This document shows, piece after piece, positions 1 to 10,212 of a DNA stretch of 64,000 nt. This DNA is from Mariprofundus ferrinatatus. GTDB lineage: Bacteria > Pseudomonadota > Zetaproteobacteria > Mariprofundales > Mariprofundaceae. How positions within the stretch are numbered: the stretch's first letter is position 1; each line of letters opens with the position of its first letter. The notes under the pieces were generated by a model. That model was not told the DNA's origin. It saw only the letters and a program-made list of their open reading frames with translations, and made no database searches. The position numbers and the translations under genes are program-made. The DNA lies in contig NZ_CP018800.1 in NCBI RefSeq assembly GCF_002795825.1, positions 868,001-932,000 on the forward strand. The letters run 5' to 3'.

Positions 1-2175
1 GTAAAAAAAATCTGTTCCCAAAAAAGATACTTGCGCTTTATTGGTACAATAATCACCCTGGAAGAGCCAAATCCATTAGTCCACGTTCATTACGATAGCA
101 ACGGGCTAATTACAAAAATCAATAACATAATTGATGGGCAGCAACGGATATCTACGCTTACAGTATTGTCGATTATCATTCATAAGCGGCTTAAAGATAT
201 TTCTAAAGAAATTCAAAAAAATGGTTGGGAAACTCTTCCAGGCATTGATGATTTGTTAACTACCATTGAAAATAAAAGCTATGATCTTGAGCAATTCTAT
301 AGCATTGATATTCGAAAAGCTCGCGTTAACCCATCAAAGAAGCCAATAGTTATCAGAGCTCATAATACACATACATCACCAAAGACTGACCAATGGACAT
401 TACATGGAGCATCTAAAGATTATTACCGATCTGATATAGGGCAGTTTCTTGCTCATTATATAGAGCATGGTGATATAATTAGCCCAATTTCTAATGTGAA
501 ATTGAAAGGCAATGTAAAGGTAATCAATGAGTGGATTATCAAAACCGAGCAATCATCCAACCTTCCAACCCCAAAAATTCTTTTGGAACAAAACTCCAAA
601 AATCTTCCAGGATTTATAGATGGGAACATTGACCTGGATGTATTACAACATGCAGATGCTGATTGCTATCAGTTGACTTGTGGAGCTATGAAGCTGTTGG
701 CTTTAATTTATTTTATGTCTCATAGAACCTTTTTAACTGTAATTGAATGTCCTGGAGAATCCTTGGCTTTTGATATGTTTCAAGCGCTGAATGCAACGGG
801 AACACCATTAACAGCAATTGAGGTATTTAAACCATTAGTTGTAAATACAGTAGGAGCAGCTTTTGGGACGTCAAAAACTAAGGAGTATTTTGATATTTCT
901 GACCGTTTCTTTGACCAACAAAAAAGTGCTGCCTCAAAAGAAAAAATGACCGATGAAGTCTTAATTCGCATGGCATTAGTTCATGATTCATATGAATTAG
1001 GAAAGAGATTTAGTGACCAGCGGGATTGGCTTACTAGAGCATACACAGAGAGTAATACTCAGGAACAAGAAAACTTAATCCATTGGATGAGTGATCTCAC
1101 TTTATATTGGGAAAATATTTTTCTTCCGAATAGGCCAAGCCGTAATTCGGTCTCGTTTACTATTTCTAATCACCTCACAACATTGGGTTTGAATAATGAT
1201 GATGCAGACTTTTCAGCCTTGTGTATTTATTACTTGAAAGATGCCAAGCATGCAATGGCTCATTACTTGTTGAGTCTTTTCTATAGCAAACTATTGAGAG
1301 CTATAGGGACGCCAAACCATCAGTTTGAGATTCAAAACTTTATCGAAGTAAGTAAGGCCTGTGCCAGCTTTTTTACATTATGGAGTGCCGCTCTTTCTGG
1401 GTTCCCAGATGATGTATATCGTCGACTTTTTGATCAGTCAGGCGCGAATATTTCTTGGAAAACTGGAGCTGGAAACCAAAATGCCAATTTTGTAAAAGAG
1501 CATTTCAAGAAGGCACTAGAAGATAATGGTGTTTTTGATGTATCTAATTTAGGAAATGCTAAGAATTTGTGGAAATCCAAAGCAATAACACGCCTTGGAT
1601 ATACAAAGAAAGCAGTTTGCAGGTTCTCTCTTTTTGTGGCTTCTCACGACAAGGCCCCAGATATGGCTCCCGGATTCGAGGGGCTTGTAGAAAAAGGCTC
1701 CGTGAGGAGTGCCACTTACTTAAACTGTGAGAGCTGGTTCTCGGAAAGGTATGGCATTATGGAACACATAGGCAACCGAGAAAAGCCTGCATCAAATAAA
1801 TATGGTGGCCCTGATCCTTTGTTGTACCCTGGAGATAATTCTGTGGTAGATAAAATTGGGAACCTTACATTGTGGTCGCCATCAGCAAATTCATCGACCT
1901 ATCCTGAATGGCAGGAGAAAGTTTTGTATTACGCTACTCTAACTCGCTTTAACCCTGTTACTACGTTTGTAATTAGTGATATGGCAAAAGCATTAGGGGT
2001 AACAACGATACCTCCATCTATAGCGACTGTAGCGGCAGCAAGCGGATATATTGCGAACCTTGCTCCAATCGCTTATAGGGGTTCTAAAGGATTACCATGG
2101 AATAAAGACTTCGTGGACTTGCGAACCAATCGCACATGTGAGTTGGTTTTTGACGATTTGGTTGCATGGCTTTAG
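1..2175 (+). CDS. DUF262/DUF1524 (GmrSD/SspE-like) nuclease, 5' end cut off by window
   Basis: The reading frame is open from base 1 (no stop before the TTG at 31), so the true start lies upstream of the window. About 45 residues in is the motif IDGQQRIST, the hallmark of the DUF262 NTP-binding domain. The C-terminal part carries a His-Asn type nuclease signature of DUF1524: EHI at about residue 590, followed by GNLTLW and a downstream Asn. DUF262-DUF1524 proteins include the type IV enzyme GmrSD, BrxU and SspE, which cleave or nick modified DNA or sense DNA phosphorothioation. The next gene, 21 bp downstream, is a cysteine desulfurase, so an SspE-like role tied to sulfur modification is plausible but inferred. 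Base composition is clearly AT-rich compared with the chromosome after 9.8 kb. Family assignment is firm; the target and modification dependence are not known. Confidence 0.85.
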   Translation, partial: VKKICSQKRYLRFIGTIITLEEPNPLVHVHYDSNGLITKINNIIDGQQRISTLTVLSIIIHKRLKDISKEIQKNGWETLPGIDDLLTTIENKSYDLEQFYSIDIRKARVNPSKKPIVIRAHNTHTSPKTDQWTLHGASKDYYRSDIGQFLAHYIEHGDIISPISNVKLKGNVKVINEWIIKTEQSSNLPTPKILLEQNSKNLPGFIDGNIDLDVLQHADADCYQLTCGAMKLLALIYFMSHRTFLTVIECPGESLAFDMFQALNATGTPLTAIEVFKPLVVNTVGAAFGTSKTKEYFDISDRFFDQQKSAASKEKMTDEVLIRMALVHDSYELGKRFSDQRDWLTRAYTESNTQEQENLIHWMSDLTLYWENIFLPNRPSRNSVSFTISNHLTTLGLNNDDADFSALCIYYLKDAKHAMAHYLLSLFYSKLLRAIGTPNHQFEIQNFIEVSKACASFFTLWSAALSGFPDDVYRRLFDQSGANISWKTGAGNQNANFVKEHFKKALEDNGVFDVSNLGNAKNLWKSKAITRLGYTKKAVCRFSLFVASHDKAPDMAPGFEGLVEKGSVRSATYLNCESWFSERYGIMEHIGNREKPASNKYGGPDPLLYPGDNSVVDKIGNLTLWSPSANSSTYPEWQEKVLYYATLTRFNPVTTFVISDMAKALGVTTIPPSIATVAAASGYIANLAPIAYRGSKGLPWNKDFVDLRTNRTCELVFDDLVAWL

Positions 2176-2196: not shown

Positions 2197-3333
2197 ATGA
2201 TTTATTTGGATTATGCTGCAACCACCCCTGTGGGCTCTAATGTGCTTGAAAAGATGCGCGAGTGCCTTTCTGTTGATGGTACATATGGGAACCCATCATC
2301 TCCACATTCATTTGGAGAGAAAGCATCAATTGCTATTGAGAATGCAAGAGAACAAGTTGCAAGCTTAATTGGTGCTTCTCCAAAAGAAATTGTATTCACA
2401 TCAGGCGCTACAGAATCAAATAATCTTACTCTTAAAGGTGTTTTTTTTGGCCCTATAGCTGGCAAGCACATCATTACTACTGAAATTGAGCACAAGTCAA
2501 TTTTAGATACGTGTTCTTATTTAGAGAAGATGGGGGCTGAGGTAACAAGGCTTAAGCCAGATTCTTCCGGCTTAATTGACCTTGATGAGCTAGAAAACAG
2601 TATCAGAGAAGACACCTCGCTCGTTTCTATCATTCATGTAAATAATGAAACTGGTGTTATTCAAGATGTTGAGAAAATAGCATCTATAGTGAAGAAGAAA
2701 GGTTGTTTGTTACATGTTGATGCAGCTCAAAGTATTGGCAAGCTTTCGATTGATTTATCAAAAATCCCTATCGACCTTATGTCTATTTCTGCGCATAAAA
2801 TATATGGCCCCAAAGGCATAGGTTGTTTATTCGTCAGGAAGGGCTTGGAGCGCAATCTTCAGCCTCAGATGCACGGTGGAGGGCAAGAGGGCGGATTGCG
2901 CTCTGGAACTATGCCTACCCACCAAATTGTCGGTATGGGTAAAGCCTTATCTTTAGCGCAAGAAAGAATGGCTGAAGATCATGAAATGATGAGTAAACTA
3001 AAAGAGCAACTACTTGCTGGCCTTAGCGGAATTCAGGGCATGTATGAAAACGGATCTATAGAGCGCTCGGTTCCAAACATTCTTAACGTTAGCTTTGACG
3101 GAATAGATGCAGAGCTATTGCTCCATCGACTAAGAAACAAGATTGCCATCTCAAATGGATCCGCATGTAACTCTGGAGCAATTGAACCATCATATGTTCT
3201 ACGTTCCATGGGGCTTTCAGAAGACCGAGTATATGGTGCAATCCGAATTAGTATGGGGAGATATACTTCTAACGAAGATATTGATTTAGCTGTTCATGCA
3301 ATTTGCGATATTGTGGCAAACTTAAGGTCATAA
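2197..3333 (+). CDS. Cysteine desulfurase (IscS/NifS/DndA-like)
   Basis: This 378-residue PLP enzyme of aminotransferase class V takes sulfur from cysteine and holds it as a persulfide. It begins LDYAATTPV, has the PLP lysine in SAHK (K201), the GATESNN substrate loop near residue 70 and the catalytic Cys in the loop GSACNSG (C324). The length is close to that of DndA and IscS. There is no iscU, iscR or other Fe-S assembly gene beside it. Instead it sits between a DUF262/DUF1524 nuclease and a PD-(D/E)XK-like protein, so I infer a DndA/SspA-type sulfur donor for DNA phosphorothioation or for tRNA-like thiolation in a defence locus. The stop codon lies 2 bp before the likely start of the next gene, so the two are probably cotranslated. 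No dndCDE or sspBCD gene is in the window; these could lie upstream of base 1. Confidence 0.93.
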   Translation: MIYLDYAATTPVGSNVLEKMRECLSVDGTYGNPSSPHSFGEKASIAIENAREQVASLIGASPKEIVFTSGATESNNLTLKGVFFGPIAGKHIITTEIEHKSILDTCSYLEKMGAEVTRLKPDSSGLIDLDELENSIREDTSLVSIIHVNNETGVIQDVEKIASIVKKKGCLLHVDAAQSIGKLSIDLSKIPIDLMSISAHKIYGPKGIGCLFVRKGLERNLQPQMHGGGQEGGLRSGTMPTHQIVGMGKALSLAQERMAEDHEMMSKLKEQLLAGLSGIQGMYENGSIERSVPNILNVSFDGIDAELLLHRLRNKIAISNGSACNSGAIEPSYVLRSMGLSEDRVYGAIRISMGRYTSNEDIDLAVHAICDIVANLRS

Positions 3334-3335
3334 GA

Positions 3336-4184
3336 TTGCCTGACTTCTCCTTCAACCCTGCGCTTTCTCAGATGGACGAAGAGGACCTTGAGTTTTGGGG
3401 GCCAAAAGATTTTCAGACATATAGTTCAGAAAATGGATTCAGTAGAATAAATGCTCCAACAGTTATTTCTATTGATTCTTTGGAAGCGCTACGACCTGAA
3501 CTAAAAGATACAAATACGATGGTGCTTAGGCTTGGACGCTCATCAAGCAGTGGGACGCAGTTTGGCCTAGTAAAATCGCGGGATGTGCGAGACTTTTTTC
3601 TTGTCGATTCAGTTATATTTGAGGGTCTAACGCCTCAAACATTTTTGCCTCCAATGAAGTATTCTGAGCTTTATCCTTTCCAGTTGATAGGTGCACAATC
3701 AGAAACATCGCTTGTGAATTTTGGTTGTTCGTCAGGATTGTTGGCCAAGGCTCTAGGCCTTAATTTTATTTCAATTAGCGCGCCAGCGACTGGGGCATCC
3801 ACATATACCTTTAATGTCAAAGTAGGTAAGCAAATACCACCAATAAGGCACACAAGTGGTCAGGTTCAGTTTGATGCAGTCTTTGTTGGGGAAAGAGGTG
3901 GTAAACAGTGCCTTTTTGTTCTTGAAGCCAAGAATAGAGGGAGACATCGGTCCTTAGCTAAACATAAGCTTGTGTATCCAATTTTAGCTCTTGCACCAAA
4001 TGTCCCATCAGATATGGAAATTATTCCTGTCTATTTGAAGACCATAGAACATGCTGAAGGAGTATGCTTTCAGGTGGCCGAATGTTCATATCCTGATCCA
4101 AGAAATGAGCTTAGTGATCTCCGAGAGGTCTCGGTTGTGAATGCATCATCCTATGTGGTCCCTAGTCTGTCGATGGGGGGGTGA
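3336..4184 (+). CDS. Putative PD-(D/E)XK-type nuclease, unrecognised family
   Basis: I do not recognise the family. The protein is 282 residues from a TTG at 3336, which follows the desulfurase stop by 2 bp and has AAGG about 8 bases upstream; a TTG at 3303 or an ATG at 3372 are alternatives. Residues 179-199 read QFDAVFVG...LFVLEAK, giving Asp180, Glu197 and Lys199 in the spacing of a PD-(D/E)XK active site, with a possible helix-A Glu in SETSLVNF upstream. This pattern is typical of restriction endonucleases and Holliday-junction-type nucleases. Its coupling to a cysteine desulfurase and to a DUF262/DUF1524 nuclease supports a DNA-processing role in defence. No membrane segment or signal peptide is visible. 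The nuclease call rests on one motif and needs a profile search. Confidence 0.6.
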   Translation: MPDFSFNPALSQMDEEDLEFWGPKDFQTYSSENGFSRINAPTVISIDSLEALRPELKDTNTMVLRLGRSSSSGTQFGLVKSRDVRDFFLVDSVIFEGLTPQTFLPPMKYSELYPFQLIGAQSETSLVNFGCSSGLLAKALGLNFISISAPATGASTYTFNVKVGKQIPPIRHTSGQVQFDAVFVGERGGKQCLFVLEAKNRGRHRSLAKHKLVYPILALAPNVPSDMEIIPVYLKTIEHAEGVCFQVAECSYPDPRNELSDLREVSVVNASSYVVPSLSMGG

Positions 4185-4811: not shown

Positions 4812-6452
4812 GTGAAGAATCTAGAGCTTAAGCCAACATTGAGAAAGCTTGGTACAGCTAGGTTAGCAAACCTAGTAGGGCACCAAAGATTGGAAATGAT
4901 CTATGACGTTCTGAATGCCAGTGTCACTGAGAGTAAACTAGTAGACTTACTAGTACTTCGCTACGGCTCACAAGTGTTAGCCCAAAAAGAAATAAGAAAC
5001 GCAATATTTCTTGCCCTCGAGCCTGAATATCAAGGTTACATTTATGATGGAAACTTCCTTGATGGAAGGGTTTTGAGCCAAAATGAGCGTAAAAATCTGG
5101 ACTCACAAAGCTGGGGGCGAAGTAGGTCGTCAACTAAAAGGCTATTGAATCTGTTTGATTTAGGTGATGAATGTTTTCCACCAAAAGAAGAGATACCACC
5201 CTCTGTAGAAAACATACAACCTGATACTATCCTTTTTCCATATCAAAGAAGGGTTAAAGATAGGTATGTAAGAACCCTGCTTGGCGGTGCAGATCGTTTG
5301 ATGCTCCATATGCCCACGGGCGCAGGCAAAACAAGAACATGCATAGAAGGCCTCGTAGATTGCTTGAGGGCCTTTTCAGATCGATCTGGATATGTTGTAT
5401 GGCTTGCTCATTCAGAAGAGCTATGCGAGCAAGCTGTGGAAACCTTTAAAAAGATTTGGAGTGTAAGAGGCGATGAAAGCATTGATGTAATCCGCCTCTG
5501 GGGTAAGCACCCTTCACCTGATTTCTCAAATGGCTCAGGTTTTGTCGTTGCGAGTCTTCAACGAATTCATGCAATGCGTCTAAGCAGGAAAGATCAGACA
5601 TTCATCCAAGCCGGGCAATTAAAATCAAAGTGTAGAATGGTTGTTATTGATGAGGCTCACAAAGCTATTGCCCCTACATATCTAGCAAGTATTGAATTCA
5701 TATCAAATCTTGATTCTACTAAAATTTTGGGGTTAACCGCTACTCCGGGGCGAGGCTTTGAAGAAGATGAAACGAAAGAGTTAGTTGAATTCTTTCATGG
5801 AAATAAAATCACCATTACAGATCAAAATGGATGTGATGTAGAAGATCCGATTGGTTACCTCCAAGAAGAACAGTATTTGGCAAAAATAATCCGCAGGGCT
5901 GTAGCAACGCAAGTGACTGTAGACCTCACTGAACAAGAAAAGAACTATGTTGCAAACCTTCTTGATCTCCCTCAAAGCGTGCTTAATAGATTGGCAGATG
6001 ATGCTGAGCGTAATGCTTTGATTGTTGCTGAGATTGCGGCATTAGTAATGGAGGGGAGAGATTCTATCGTGTTCGCACTGTCCGTTGAACATGCTCATTT
6101 GGTAGCTGAACTTCTGATGTTGCGTGGTATTGAAGCTAGGTGTGTTGATGGTTCAACTAGCTCATATGATAGGAATAAACATATTAATGACTATAAACAT
6201 GGTGCTGTTCGAGTGCTGGTTAATTATGGTGTTTTAACAACTGGCTTTGATGCACCAAATACTAATGCGGTACTTATAGCTAGACCAACAGGGTCACTTG
6301 TTCTTTATTCCCAGATGATAGGACGTGGAATTAGAGGTAAACGAATGGGGGGGAATCTTGACTGTAAATTGGTTGACCTTAAAGACAACCTGATCGGGTT
6401 TCCAAATGAAAGCATGGCTTTTTCATATTTTGATGAAGCATGGGGTGAATAA
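4812..6452 (+). CDS. SF2 DEAH-box helicase of a defence module
   Basis: A 546-residue superfamily 2 helicase starting at GTG behind a G-rich ribosome site. Residues 1-130 are an unassigned N-terminal domain. The Q-like element FPYQRR (about 142) precedes Walker A MPTGAGKT (167-174), motif II DEAH (280-283), motif III TATPG (310), and a C-terminal helicase domain with TTGFDAPN and the arginine-finger motif QMIGRGIRG. The protein ends shortly after motif VI, so no fused nuclease is visible. Similar Res-subunit helicases occur in type III restriction, DISARM and Dnd-linked restriction loci. It is followed after 17 bp by a GHKL ATPase and then a PLD nuclease, which suggests that it translocates on DNA to deliver or activate those partners. 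Family call firm; biological role inferred. Confidence 0.92.
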   Translation: MKNLELKPTLRKLGTARLANLVGHQRLEMIYDVLNASVTESKLVDLLVLRYGSQVLAQKEIRNAIFLALEPEYQGYIYDGNFLDGRVLSQNERKNLDSQSWGRSRSSTKRLLNLFDLGDECFPPKEEIPPSVENIQPDTILFPYQRRVKDRYVRTLLGGADRLMLHMPTGAGKTRTCIEGLVDCLRAFSDRSGYVVWLAHSEELCEQAVETFKKIWSVRGDESIDVIRLWGKHPSPDFSNGSGFVVASLQRIHAMRLSRKDQTFIQAGQLKSKCRMVVIDEAHKAIAPTYLASIEFISNLDSTKILGLTATPGRGFEEDETKELVEFFHGNKITITDQNGCDVEDPIGYLQEEQYLAKIIRRAVATQVTVDLTEQEKNYVANLLDLPQSVLNRLADDAERNALIVAEIAALVMEGRDSIVFALSVEHAHLVAELLMLRGIEARCVDGSTSSYDRNKHINDYKHGAVRVLVNYGVLTTGFDAPNTNAVLIARPTGSLVLYSQMIGRGIRGKRMGGNLDCKLVDLKDNLIGFPNESMAFSYFDEAWGE

Positions 6453-6469: not shown

Positions 6470-8230
6470 ATGGCAAATGCACTGATACCAGCAAAAACAG
6501 CGATTCAAACTTTCAGAGATGCTGGCTATAAAAATACAGCATCGGCCGTGGCTGAGTTAATTGACAACTCGATTGAGGCCAAAGCTAAAGACATCCAGAT
6601 TATTACTTTTGAGGAAGCTGTCTTTCAGGGGGCTAGAACTACATACAGAATCAATGAGTTAGCTGTATATGATGACGGTGGTGGGATGCCTCCTTCTGTT
6701 TTGGAGATATGTTTGCAATTTGGCAATGGTACTCGTTTATCATCTAGGAGTGGTATTGGTCGTTTTGGTATTGGTTTGCCGAATGCCTCAGTAAGTCAGG
6801 CCAAGAGAATTGATGTCTATTCGTGGCAAAACAATGAGTGCTATCACACCTACCTCGATGTTGATGAGGTTAGTAATGGTGATCTTGATGAGGTGAATCC
6901 AGTAACGAGGAAAGAGTTGCCCCAAGAGTGGAAGCAGACTATTGAGGGGGGTGTTCAGGAGTCAGGAACGCTAATTGTGTGGTCAAAGTGTGATCGGCTT
7001 GATATGGCGAGGTCACGAACTCTCTTTACAACCTTGAGTAAAGATTTATGCAGAATTTATAGGCATTTCTTGGATGATGATAATTCTTATGGAAAGAAAG
7101 TGAAGATAAGGCTTGTAGAGGCAAGCAAAGAAATGCTTCTTGGGAATATGGAGAAGAAAATCACTCCCCTGCAGGCGAATGACCCCTTGTATCTGATGAC
7201 CCCAAATAATATCCCTGAATTTGAAACCAAAAAAACTAACATGCTGCATGGGAATATAGTTTCTTTCCCTGTAAGATATAATGAAGATGGTGATACAGCG
7301 AATGTTGAGATTAGGTTTTCTATTGCTTTGCCAGAAACCCAGACCCTAGGCGGCGGATCACTGTTAGGGCAACATTATAGACGGAACACAGGGATATCTT
7401 TTATGAGGGCAGCCAGAGAGATCGATTTTGGTACCTTCGGCTACTTTAACAGTCAGGATGAACGAGAGAGATGGTGGGGGTGTGAGATTCGCTTTGAGCC
7501 AAAATTGGATGAGCTGTTTGGAGTGACGAATAACAAACAGGCCGTGAGAGGGGTTCATTATATAGACGAAAAAGAGTTCAAAAAAGAGCACGCTGATGAC
7601 TGGGAAGACATGTTAAAAGATGATCTTAAGTTGCTTCTTAGAATGCAGCTAAGTAAATATTTCTACCAGAACCATAAAGAGATGTGGAATATAATTAAGG
7701 GGCGAGGTGCAGGTAAGCGGGGAGACAGCGCAAAAGAAAGGGCGGCATCAGACAAAAGTACCCGAATTGCAAACCAGGAACTTGAGGGATTAAAGACGCC
7801 TACACGGTCTGCAGAAATTGGTCAGAAAAAATCAGGAGATGAGAAGGTTGTTGAGTGGAGAGATCGCCTACTTGAATCTGACTCATCTCTTCTTACTGAT
7901 GAGGCTGCTGCAGTCGCGAAAGAGAAGGTTGACTTAATTATAGAGAAAGACTTTAGCGCTTGGCCCGGCTCCCAGTTCTTTAGCATCGAAATTATCGGTG
8001 GAACATGTGTGCTGGTGATCAATAGGAAACACCCATTCTTTAGTGATTTGTATGAACCAATTATGGATGCCGATGATGATAAATATATCGAGGCACTTGA
8101 TCTTGTTTTAATGGCCTATGCGAGAATGGAAGATGAATTATATAGTCGAAATGATGAGTTGGACGAAATTAGGGATATATGGGGGCGCCACCTGAAGACA
8201 TTTTTGTTGAAATTAAAGGATGAAGCATGA
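6470..8230 (+). CDS. GHKL (MORC/MutL/Hsp90-like) ATPase
   Basis: This 586-residue protein opens with an HSP90-like ATPase fold: N-box AELIDNSIEAKA (Glu29, Asn33), G1 DDGGGM (68-73) and G2 GRFGIGLPNAS (97-107). These are the Bergerat-fold elements that bind ATP and close a lid on dimerisation. The remainder includes a transducer-like region and a Lys/Glu-rich linker around 400-470, then a C-terminal domain with GTCVLVINRKHPF. Iyer, Abhiman and Aravind described prokaryotic MORC-like ATPases in predicted restriction-type operons with SF2 helicases and nucleases, and this gene fits that picture. It lies 17 bp after the helicase and 16 bp before the PLD gene, all on one strand. I infer an ATP-gated DNA clamp that couples helicase to nuclease. 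Confidence 0.9.
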   Translation: MANALIPAKTAIQTFRDAGYKNTASAVAELIDNSIEAKAKDIQIITFEEAVFQGARTTYRINELAVYDDGGGMPPSVLEICLQFGNGTRLSSRSGIGRFGIGLPNASVSQAKRIDVYSWQNNECYHTYLDVDEVSNGDLDEVNPVTRKELPQEWKQTIEGGVQESGTLIVWSKCDRLDMARSRTLFTTLSKDLCRIYRHFLDDDNSYGKKVKIRLVEASKEMLLGNMEKKITPLQANDPLYLMTPNNIPEFETKKTNMLHGNIVSFPVRYNEDGDTANVEIRFSIALPETQTLGGGSLLGQHYRRNTGISFMRAAREIDFGTFGYFNSQDERERWWGCEIRFEPKLDELFGVTNNKQAVRGVHYIDEKEFKKEHADDWEDMLKDDLKLLLRMQLSKYFYQNHKEMWNIIKGRGAGKRGDSAKERAASDKSTRIANQELEGLKTPTRSAEIGQKKSGDEKVVEWRDRLLESDSSLLTDEAAAVAKEKVDLIIEKDFSAWPGSQFFSIEIIGGTCVLVINRKHPFFSDLYEPIMDADDDKYIEALDLVLMAYARMEDELYSRNDELDEIRDIWGRHLKTFLLKLKDEA

Positions 8231-8246
8231 GTTCATATAAACCTAT

Positions 8247-9209
8247 ATGAACCTGCTCGGAACAGAGGCTTATCGGAACTCTCTAGCTGCAGCGATTACT
8301 AATGCAAAACAGTCTATTGTTGTTGTTTCAGCATTTGTTACAAAAGGTGGCTGTGAGTGGATAAATCATCACATAAGTCACCCAAGTGTTGCGGTTCAAT
8401 TTATAGTTCGTTGGAAACTCCAGGATTTAATATCTGGAGCATCTGATCTAGATTCTTATGAATATGCTAGGTCTCTTGGTTGGGACTTTTATGTGCAGCC
8501 GGACCTGCATGCCAAAGTAGCACTGGTAGATGATCACCAAATTTATCTCGGTAGTGCAAATGTTACAAATAAGGGTCTTGCTCTTGCACCCGGAGGAAAC
8601 AGAGAATTTGGAGTCTCTTTTTTGGCCTCCCAAAGGGACTTGGATGTGATAAAAACAGTGCAGGATGAAAGCGTATACATTACTCCTGAATTGTATTTAG
8701 AAATAAGAAAATATCTTGATGAATTGCCTCCAGATGAAAAAACAAAGGCATCAGATGGGGAATGGCCAAATGAGTTGAAAGAGAAGTTTCTTCAACCTCC
8801 ACAAAAGCTATGGGTTGCGGATTTATTATGGTCTTCTCCCTCATCAGAGAGTTTAGTAATGGAGATTTCTCCGGATTTTGCTCGTGAGATTGAGCATGAT
8901 ACTAAACTGTTAGGATTGCCCGTGTTGTACCATCACATTGAAGCAAGCAGCCTGTTGCCAGCATTCATATCTAGTCGAGCATATCATTGGCTAATATGCC
9001 AATTAAAGAAGAATGGTGGTCAATTACATTATGGGGAGTTAACTGTAAGGCTGCACGATGCGCTCCTGGATGATCCATTACCGTATAGGAAAGATATAAA
9101 ATGCTTAGTTTCTAACTTGCTATCATGGGTTGAATTTTTAAAGGTTCCTGGTTTGGCAGTAGATATTCCGGGGCGGCATTCGCAAAGGCTTAGGGTTCTT
9201 TCTGAATAG
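8247..9209 (+). CDS. Phospholipase D-like nuclease (single HxK motif)
   Basis: A 320-residue protein whose first 130 residues form one PLD domain: the catalytic LHAKVAL (His88, Lys90), LGSANVT (103-107) and the closing GNREF (Glu120). One HxK motif per chain means that catalysis requires a dimer, as in bacterial PLD endonucleases such as Nuc and BfiI. The C-terminal 180 residues are unassigned and may bind DNA or the partner ATPase. DISARM DrmC and DpdK are defence-associated PLD proteins, so the domain is common in such loci. It is the last gene of the helicase-ATPase-PLD trio and the probable effector. There is no signal peptide, so it should act on cytoplasmic DNA. Confidence 0.88.
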   Translation: MNLLGTEAYRNSLAAAITNAKQSIVVVSAFVTKGGCEWINHHISHPSVAVQFIVRWKLQDLISGASDLDSYEYARSLGWDFYVQPDLHAKVALVDDHQIYLGSANVTNKGLALAPGGNREFGVSFLASQRDLDVIKTVQDESVYITPELYLEIRKYLDELPPDEKTKASDGEWPNELKEKFLQPPQKLWVADLLWSSPSSESLVMEISPDFAREIEHDTKLLGLPVLYHHIEASSLLPAFISSRAYHWLICQLKKNGGQLHYGELTVRLHDALLDDPLPYRKDIKCLVSNLLSWVEFLKVPGLAVDIPGRHSQRLRVLSE

Positions 9210-9870
9210 AAAACAGCTAAAAGGAAGTACTAATTCATGACTATGGTCATGCAATTGTTACGACCATAGGGCAATTGCTGCTTGCTGAATCATTAGTTGG
9301 CTATGAGAAAGGTTTTTTGTAAGATAACAAACGTCTACTGAAATGCGGGCAGTCCACCTAGGCCTTCTGATTACTAATCATTGTAAGGTATGAAGGTGCA
9401 GCAAGGCCATGCATATTGAAGAAAATTTAGGTGGTAGAATTAAATCTGTTGGTATTTATGTTGGCACAAAGATGTTCCGAATAATGAATGCCATTTATAA
9501 ACAGTATGATAGAAAAGGTATTAGGATCCAGTCTTCGAGGTCACATTCGAATTATGGTGATGTGATCTGCTCCCCCTTAAATAGTGCCAGAGTGTAGTTA
9601 GTATTTCTGCCGAGGAGAGGCGGGCCATAAATATACCAGTACTTTCGTCGGTATGTTTTGACATGCGAGAGTGTAAAACCAAGCAATACGAATAAAATTG
9701 CAGAGTAATGGGAGTCCTTGAAACGCCACCAAATCCAAAGACCTCTGCGAAAGCAGGGGGCTTTGTTCATCTTCAGGTCATGTTCTGACATTATTATCTG
9801 GCTGCAGTGTTGGAATCGATAGTCAGTGTTGTTAGCCTTTTATGCATGGACAATTTAACGGGTCACTGCG
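9210..9870. other. Gene-poor junction between defence island and hyp operon
   Basis: About 660 bases without a convincing gene. Soon after the PLD stop there is an inverted repeat CTATGGTC-N13-GACCATAG (9241-9269). A 62-codon open frame at 9409-9597 resembles nothing I know and may be decayed coding sequence. At 9736-9765 there is a strong GAAA-loop hairpin (separate entry). The sequence GAAACGCCACCA just before this hairpin looks like the 3' end of a tRNA-like gene, but no T-arm precedes it, so an attachment-site remnant can only be suggested. AT content falls towards hypA. I see no transposase or integrase. Confidence 0.5.
9736..9765 (+). terminator. GAAA-tetraloop hairpin, probable terminator upstream of hypA
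   Basis: The stem pairs CAAAG with CTTTG and CCTCTGC with GCAGGGG (one G-U pair, one internal A-G mismatch) around a GAAA loop. It is followed by TTGTTCATCTT, a weak T-rich tail. It would insulate hypA from transcription entering from the island. The reverse strand lacks a T run, so a forward orientation is preferred. Confidence 0.5.
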
Positions 9871-10212
9871 ATGCATGAAGTGTCGCTTTGCCAGGGTATC
9901 GTGGAGCTGTTGCAGGAGAAGGCGGAGGTGGAATCCTTCAGTTGCATCCAAAGCATCCGGCTTGAGATAGGCTTGCTCTCCTGTGTGGAAGCAGAAGCGA
10001 TGCGCTTCGCCTTTGATGCGGTGGCTGCTGGCACTGTGGCCCAGGGTGCCAAGCTTGAAATCGACGAGGTTCCGGGGCTTGGCTGGTGCAGTCGATGTGC
10101 CTCGGAAGTCCGGATCGATCACAGGTATGATGCCTGTCCGAATTGCGAATCCTACCCTCTGGAGATAAGGCAGGGGGACGAAATGCGAATTAAATATGTG
10201 GAGGTAGTCTGA
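9871..10212 (+). CDS. hypA: HypA, nickel insertion chaperone
   Basis: HypA delivers nickel to the large subunit of NiFe hydrogenases together with HypB. The 113-residue protein starts MHEVSL, so the N-terminal nickel-ligand His2 is present. The zinc domain has two CxxC pairs (WCSRC about residue 72 and ACPNC about 90). The length is normal. Its stop codon overlaps the hypB start by one base, and five further hyp genes follow with overlaps or gaps of only a few bases, so this is the first gene of the hyp operon. No ribosome site stronger than ACGGG is seen. Confidence 0.96.

Follow-up and report, generated by a model that had tools for sequence, protein, structure and literature searches.

The window analysed here is a 64-kb stretch of Mariprofundus ferrinatatus DNA (bases 868001-932000 of one 2.3-Mb contig), and its left edge cuts into an operon of six genes in the order sspB-sspC-sspD-sspE-sspA-X, all on the same strand (Table 1). 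The 5' end of the operon lies outside the window and was found by reading 18 kb further upstream. The genes are packed tightly: the junctions B/C, C/D, D/E, E/A and A/X measure −4, −8, 16, 21 and 2 nt, respectively. Profile searches place SspB, SspC and SspD next to each other, so that the sspBCD modification core is contiguous. SspE is a phosphorothioate-sensing effector of the DUF262/GmrSD type (PADLOC SspE 1096 bits, E=0; Pfam GmrSD_N; DGQQR at residue 93). Downstream of X, a short divergent reading frame separates the operon from a second one, which encodes an SF2 helicase, a GHKL ATPase and a protein of the PLD family.

Table 1. Features of the ssp locus, with coordinates in the 64-kb window and on the contig (G000:C1)
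Feature	Window position	Contig position	Strand	Remarks
sspB	upstream of window	862546-863571		profile SspB 7e-92
sspC	upstream of window	863568-867068		profile SspC E=0; GPYGSGKS motif intact
sspD	upstream of window	867061-867840		profile SspD 2e-112; SGGKDS motif intact
sspE, 3' part	1..2175	867857-870175 (whole gene)	+	772 aa; start ~143 bp before window
sspA	2197..3333	870197-871333	+	378 aa; ATG start, stop TAA 3331-3333
AAGG, likely ribosome-binding site of X	3324..3327		+	in sspA 3' end, 8 nt before TTG
X	3336..4184	871336-872184	+	282 aa; TTG start 3336; last operon gene
X nuclease domain, residues 123-251	3702..4088		+	from AlphaFold model
D180 codon	3873..3875		+	putative metal ligand; invariant, 26/26 homologues
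E197-A198-K199 (ExK) codons	3924..3932		+	E197 26/26, K199 24/26 homologues
ORF, 142 aa	4209..4637		-	between two operons, divergent; no Pfam, PADLOC or NCBIfam match
SF2 helicase	4812..6452		+	first gene of set; ResIII/Helicase_C; GAGKT, DEAH
GHKL (MORC/MutL-like) ATPase	6470..8230		+	second gene of set; HATPase_c_3 E=1.9e-19; DDGGGM, GRFGIGL motifs
PLD-family (HKD) nuclease-like protein	8247..9209		+	third gene of set; PLDc_2; HAKVALVDD motif

The cysteine desulfurase encoded directly before X is the sulfur donor of the system. Inspection of its motifs locates the PLP lysine K201 in HKIYGP and the catalytic C324 in SAC. The enzyme could be taken for DndA, and this assignment was rejected, since the PADLOC profile of SspA (E=2.1e-157) outscores that of DndA (7e-152) and the neighbouring genes encode SspB-E. 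Judged by the profile matches of its five ssp genes, the locus is a defence system of the single-strand DNA phosphorothioation (Ssp) kind. SspABCD-SspE defence was described in Nature Microbiology in 2020 (via PMC9646914, PMC8092258): SspABCD modifies CCA with a phosphorothioate (PT) on a single strand, and this PT mark stimulates the NTPase of the nickase SspE (PMC8092258, PMC9646914). All five genes, SspA, SspB, SspC, SspD and SspE, are present here by profile. The differences from the described system are the order B-C-D-E-A, the sixth, undescribed nuclease-fold gene X, and the downstream helicase-GHKL ATPase-PLD set.

The G+C content of the island is 37-48%, compared to 50-57% for most of the chromosome that follows, with the shift near base 9,800-10,000 of the window; this difference is what horizontal acquisition of the island would predict. 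On the left side of this low-GC region there is an open reading frame with the appearance of a tyrosine recombinase/integrase (L002:6442-7356). A DUF2779/Cas4-like gene lies upstream of sspB on the minus strand (L002:10805-12277), and a homologue (2e-80) on a Planktothrix ssp plasmid (L087) has the GHKL ATPase gene on one side and the PLD gene on the other.

The initial annotation had regarded the coupling of a cysteine desulfurase to an apparent nuclease as unusual. The spacing itself, 2 bp between the stop of one frame and the start of the other, is confirmed. The pair represents the fifth and sixth genes of a six-gene Ssp operon rather than a unit of its own, and therefore its tight spacing is ordinary. 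The suggestion of modification-linked immunity was right for the desulfurase, which is SspA in the company of SspB-E, and did not hold for the pair as a self-standing unit. Homologues of X start at most one or two residues from the position of TTG 3336. This agreement and the AAGG 8 nt upstream are the reasons why we prefer TTG 3336 over the mechanical reading-frame start at 3303.

Relatives of X were collected from a haloarchaeal plasmid record, 14 genome contigs and then further genomes; identity between X and 14 relatives is 35-45% across the full length. The single sequence of X has no family match in Pfam, PADLOC or NCBIfam. Specifically, Pfam DUF6997 (PF22518) is matched by 14 of the 15 aligned X-family members (best 2.9e-22) over the C-terminal nuclease-fold region, with scores above the gathering score when members are scanned singly, while the sequence of X itself does not reach the gathering cut-off. 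X is therefore best described as a divergent relative of DUF6997 and was not assigned to it. DUF6997 is catalogued as a family of unknown function, and the accessible literature yielded no mention of it.

The AlphaFold model of X, built with 14 sequences, has a pLDDT of 92.1 and a pTM of 0.90. In this model a helix (123-133) is followed by strands 151-162, 170-187 and 190-200, a second helix (210-222) and strands 228-239 and 242-251. The resulting order, helix-strand-strand-strand-helix-strand-strand, corresponds to the PD-(D/E)XK core. Through the two-residue turn 188-189, D180 comes to lie opposite E197 on the 170-187/190-200 hairpin, with K199 on the same side (register deduced from DSSP). 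Thus D180, E197 and K199, to which the initial annotation had pointed as residues in nuclease spacing, are found at these positions and are clustered in a confidently predicted fold of the expected type. It is not by chance that they are there, given their conservation over 26 homologues (Table 1); lysine 199 is replaced by M and R in the other two. Both of these replacements occur in haloarchaeal relatives (L004 and L045). Further invariant residues among the 26 homologues are E123, H172, G175, Q176, H210, Y214, P215 and E249.

In a viral predicted-structure library the best hit, an unnamed protein that X matches along its full length, is A0A3Q8I661 (E=1e-11). A protein named as PD-(D/E)XK ranks third (E=2.6e-4), and the top 50 contain many further matches named PD-(D/E)XK, UL24, alk-exo or YqaJ. 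With the nuclease domain alone, PD-(D/E)XK enzymes make up most of the top of the PDB list (CidB, SSO0001, AddB, MGME1, RecB, HincII, McrBC, BsaXI). The best E-value against the PDB is about 0.004 with low TM-scores, and neither the whole chain nor the nuclease domain retrieves a solved structure at E≤0.001; a sequence search for solved relatives found none. X shares with the PD-(D/E)XK superfamily the core element order and the clustered D180, E197 and K199. It differs by having no significant match to a solved structure and by an extra, unassigned N-terminal domain of ~115 residues. We hold with high confidence that the predicted fold is PD-(D/E)XK, and nuclease activity of X is likely.

Two other identities of X were rejected. 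A PT-specific type IV enzyme like ScoMcrA would have the SBD-SRA-HNH architecture, and Pfam finds no SBD, SRA or HNH domain in X. A phage origin was discarded because two scans of IMG/VR gave no relative and the plasmid search gave one record only; a PHROGs search with X returned nothing convincing.

A co-occurrence check, as proposed in the initial annotation, found X at 11 bacterial loci; at 6 of them, the present one included, it is situated within or next to ssp genes. In Gottfriedia (L005) the order is sspB-C-D-F-G-H-X, with X directly after sspFGH. In Pseudoneobacillus (L006) X is on the opposite strand, facing sspD-C-B, and in Halobacteriovoraceae (L015) it also lies on the opposite strand, facing sspA, which is followed by sspD-C-B. 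The Schlesneria locus (L013) reads sspA-B-C-D, two more genes, a helicase, a GHKL ATPase, a gene for a protein termed p328, and X, and in a further genome (G568) a broken remnant of X is situated between sspD and sspF. Note that the ssp locus of Pseudoneobacillus contains two adjacent SspD-like genes (L006:11385-13907). Three other bacterial X loci (L012, L018, L053) adjoin DUF262/GmrSD genes. In two Bacilli, X is directly followed by a gene with DUF262 and GmrSD_C (PADLOC Orf5/HEC-06; L018:9986-12360, L053:7255-9837), perhaps as a unit of two genes; the L018 copy of X is broken.

Among 350 genomes of Bacilli, SspB is present in 14, X in 3 and both in 2 (Fisher p=0.004). The association of X with ssp genes is non-random, though the counts are small (11 bacterial loci). 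Defence islands cluster in any case. Among 78 genomes of Chlorobia SspB occurs in two and X in one; the only other genome with SspB is without X, which indicates that X is optional. Of 244 haloarchaeal genomes, 16 carry X. No ssp genes lie beside the haloarchaeal copies examined, SspD and DndC have no match in the six X-carrying haloarchaeal genomes searched, and no recurrent neighbour of haloarchaeal X was seen beyond scattered pairs. The ssp-linked copies are not monophyletic: a tree with a single clade is rejected (AU p=0.002, a test that long branches weaken), and this fits repeated recruitment of X.

How is X related to the PT mark? One explanation makes X a restriction effector of the present Ssp system that is gated by PT, blocked or triggered by the mark like SspFGH or SspE. 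Immediate coupling to sspA, the linkage to ssp genes in more than half of the bacterial loci, the position directly after sspFGH in Gottfriedia and the remnant between sspD and sspF would all agree with such gating. We nevertheless consider it unlikely. Full-length haloarchaeal relatives have the same catalytic residues in genomes without a SspD or DndC match, where a PT-blocked nuclease would cut its own host and a PT-triggered one would stay idle. Moreover, the ssp-linked copies form no separate clade, and X shows no known sulfur-binding or SRA domain. The existence of relatives alone in genomes where no PT machinery was found argues that X in general neither needs the mark nor is restrained only by it. 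The same solitary relatives argue against the modification-dependent restriction by X that the initial annotation had envisaged.

The solitary haloarchaeal copies, the pairing with DUF262/GmrSD genes in Bacilli and the opposite-strand copies in Pseudoneobacillus and Halobacteriovoraceae could also mean that X is an independent single-gene defence nuclease hitch-hiking in defence islands, and that its position after sspA is functionally meaningless. This is quite improbable given the 2-bp operonic coupling to sspA and given the co-occurrence with SspB in Bacilli and the linkage at close range, which go beyond the usual loose clustering of islands. It is very hard to believe that X has no catalytic activity and serves the Ssp modification complex as a DNA-binding or scaffolding subunit with a PD-(D/E)XK fold: the M and R at position 199 in two relatives and the lack of a significant match to an active solved nuclease would suit it, but D180, E197 and K199 are all present in X and the invariance of D and E in 26 homologues is hard to explain without catalysis.

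On balance, X is rather likely to be a recruited accessory PD-(D/E)XK DNase of the Ssp island, with no requirement for phosphorothioate. According to published Ssp work, SspA would draw sulfur from cysteine, SspD-SspC-SspB would insert it into one DNA strand, and SspE would detect the mark and nick invader DNA. X would be translated right after SspA and thus be produced along with the Ssp system. It may cleave invader DNA or serve as a backup when the main effector fails, and its target recognition would be its own, independent of phosphorothioate, with the N-terminal 115 residues as the likely recognition part. Cleavage of DNA by X, the choice of target and the backup role are what we infer. 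A comparable role as backup effectors has been proposed for stand-alone REases that border Dnd loci (PMC10853773). In both cases a single gene with an REase fold lies at one margin of a PT modification operon. The Dnd-border enzymes belong to Dnd loci and other REase families, whereas X belongs to an Ssp operon and is related to DUF6997.

The helicase-GHKL-PLD set downstream is linked to ssp genes more strongly. The set adjoins ssp genes in every strong relative examined, i.e. in 13 plasmids and 6 chromosomal loci, this locus included, and these relatives span several phyla. A plasmid search with the GHKL ATPase gave 20 records; in each of the 13 records at E≤5e-39, ssp genes lie no more than roughly 13 kb away. 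The hosts are Pannonibacter, Agrobacterium, Trichormus (two plasmids), Aminobacter, Roseobacter, Planktothrix, Mesorhizobium, Hymenobacter, Geminocystis, Pleomorphomonas, Cyanobacterium and Treponema. Twelve of these 13 loci were read directly, and the second Trichormus plasmid (NC_007410) is presumed to be a further case, as its ATPase and SspD coordinates match. Of the 20 ATPase records, 12 also belong to the 69 records with SspD in a total of 72,556 (hypergeometric p about 2e-32, a value that assumes independence although near-identical records are present). In the host phylum (399 genomes) a strong GHKL relative occurs in five genomes (the host, G076, G105, G250 and G345), and sspBCD is adjacent in all five. 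A weaker relative, found in G203 (E=2.5e-34), lacks ssp genes in its vicinity and was regarded as lying outside the family. The Schlesneria locus is a further ssp-linked case; its third gene, p328, has neither a PLD motif nor a Pfam match. The homologue of the PLD protein in L080 also matches RE_NgoFVII. In several ssp loci (L013:1960-3930, L083, L086, L089, L091) sspD and the helicase have a DndB/DGQHR-like gene between them or next to them, frequently accompanied by a small partner.

PADLOC profiles of SspF, SspG, SspH and PbeC do not match the set, and the helicase matches PbeA only as a generic SF2 helicase. Identification of the set as PbeABCD was rejected, since PbeC is an ATPase of the ABC/SMC-like type and not GHKL (PMC6459918, PMC10853773). 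SspFGH, PbeABCD and the set are alike in being multi-gene NTPase/nuclease modules beside a PT modification operon (PMC8092258, PMC6459918). The set differs in consisting of an SF2 helicase, a GHKL ATPase and a separate PLD protein, whereas the last protein of SspFGH is of the FtsK/HerA type and PbeC belongs to the ABC-type ATPases (PMC10853773). No description of the set was found in the accessible part of the Ssp literature. The balance tips slightly towards the set being a dedicated restriction module of SspBCD systems that is so far undescribed and would add a third branch to SspE and SspFGH; the island would then stack three effector layers, SspE, X and the set, on one modification core. 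We hypothesize that the three proteins could form a PT-gated helicase-clamp-nuclease complex.

A survey of 2,678 sspBCD loci counted 2,211 (83.9% as printed) without either SspE or SspFGH and suggested that further restriction partners might exist (PMC8092258), while a 2025 review lists DndFGH/SspFGH, SspE and PbeABCD as the only PT restriction branches (PMC12707154). The present locus offers two candidate Ssp restriction partners, X and the helicase-GHKL-PLD set. X also supplies DUF6997 with a predicted fold and catalytic residues. The sspA-X pair is a known Ssp system plus a new, probably accessory nuclease, and what surrounds it suggests a further candidate, a new effector module for Ssp systems.
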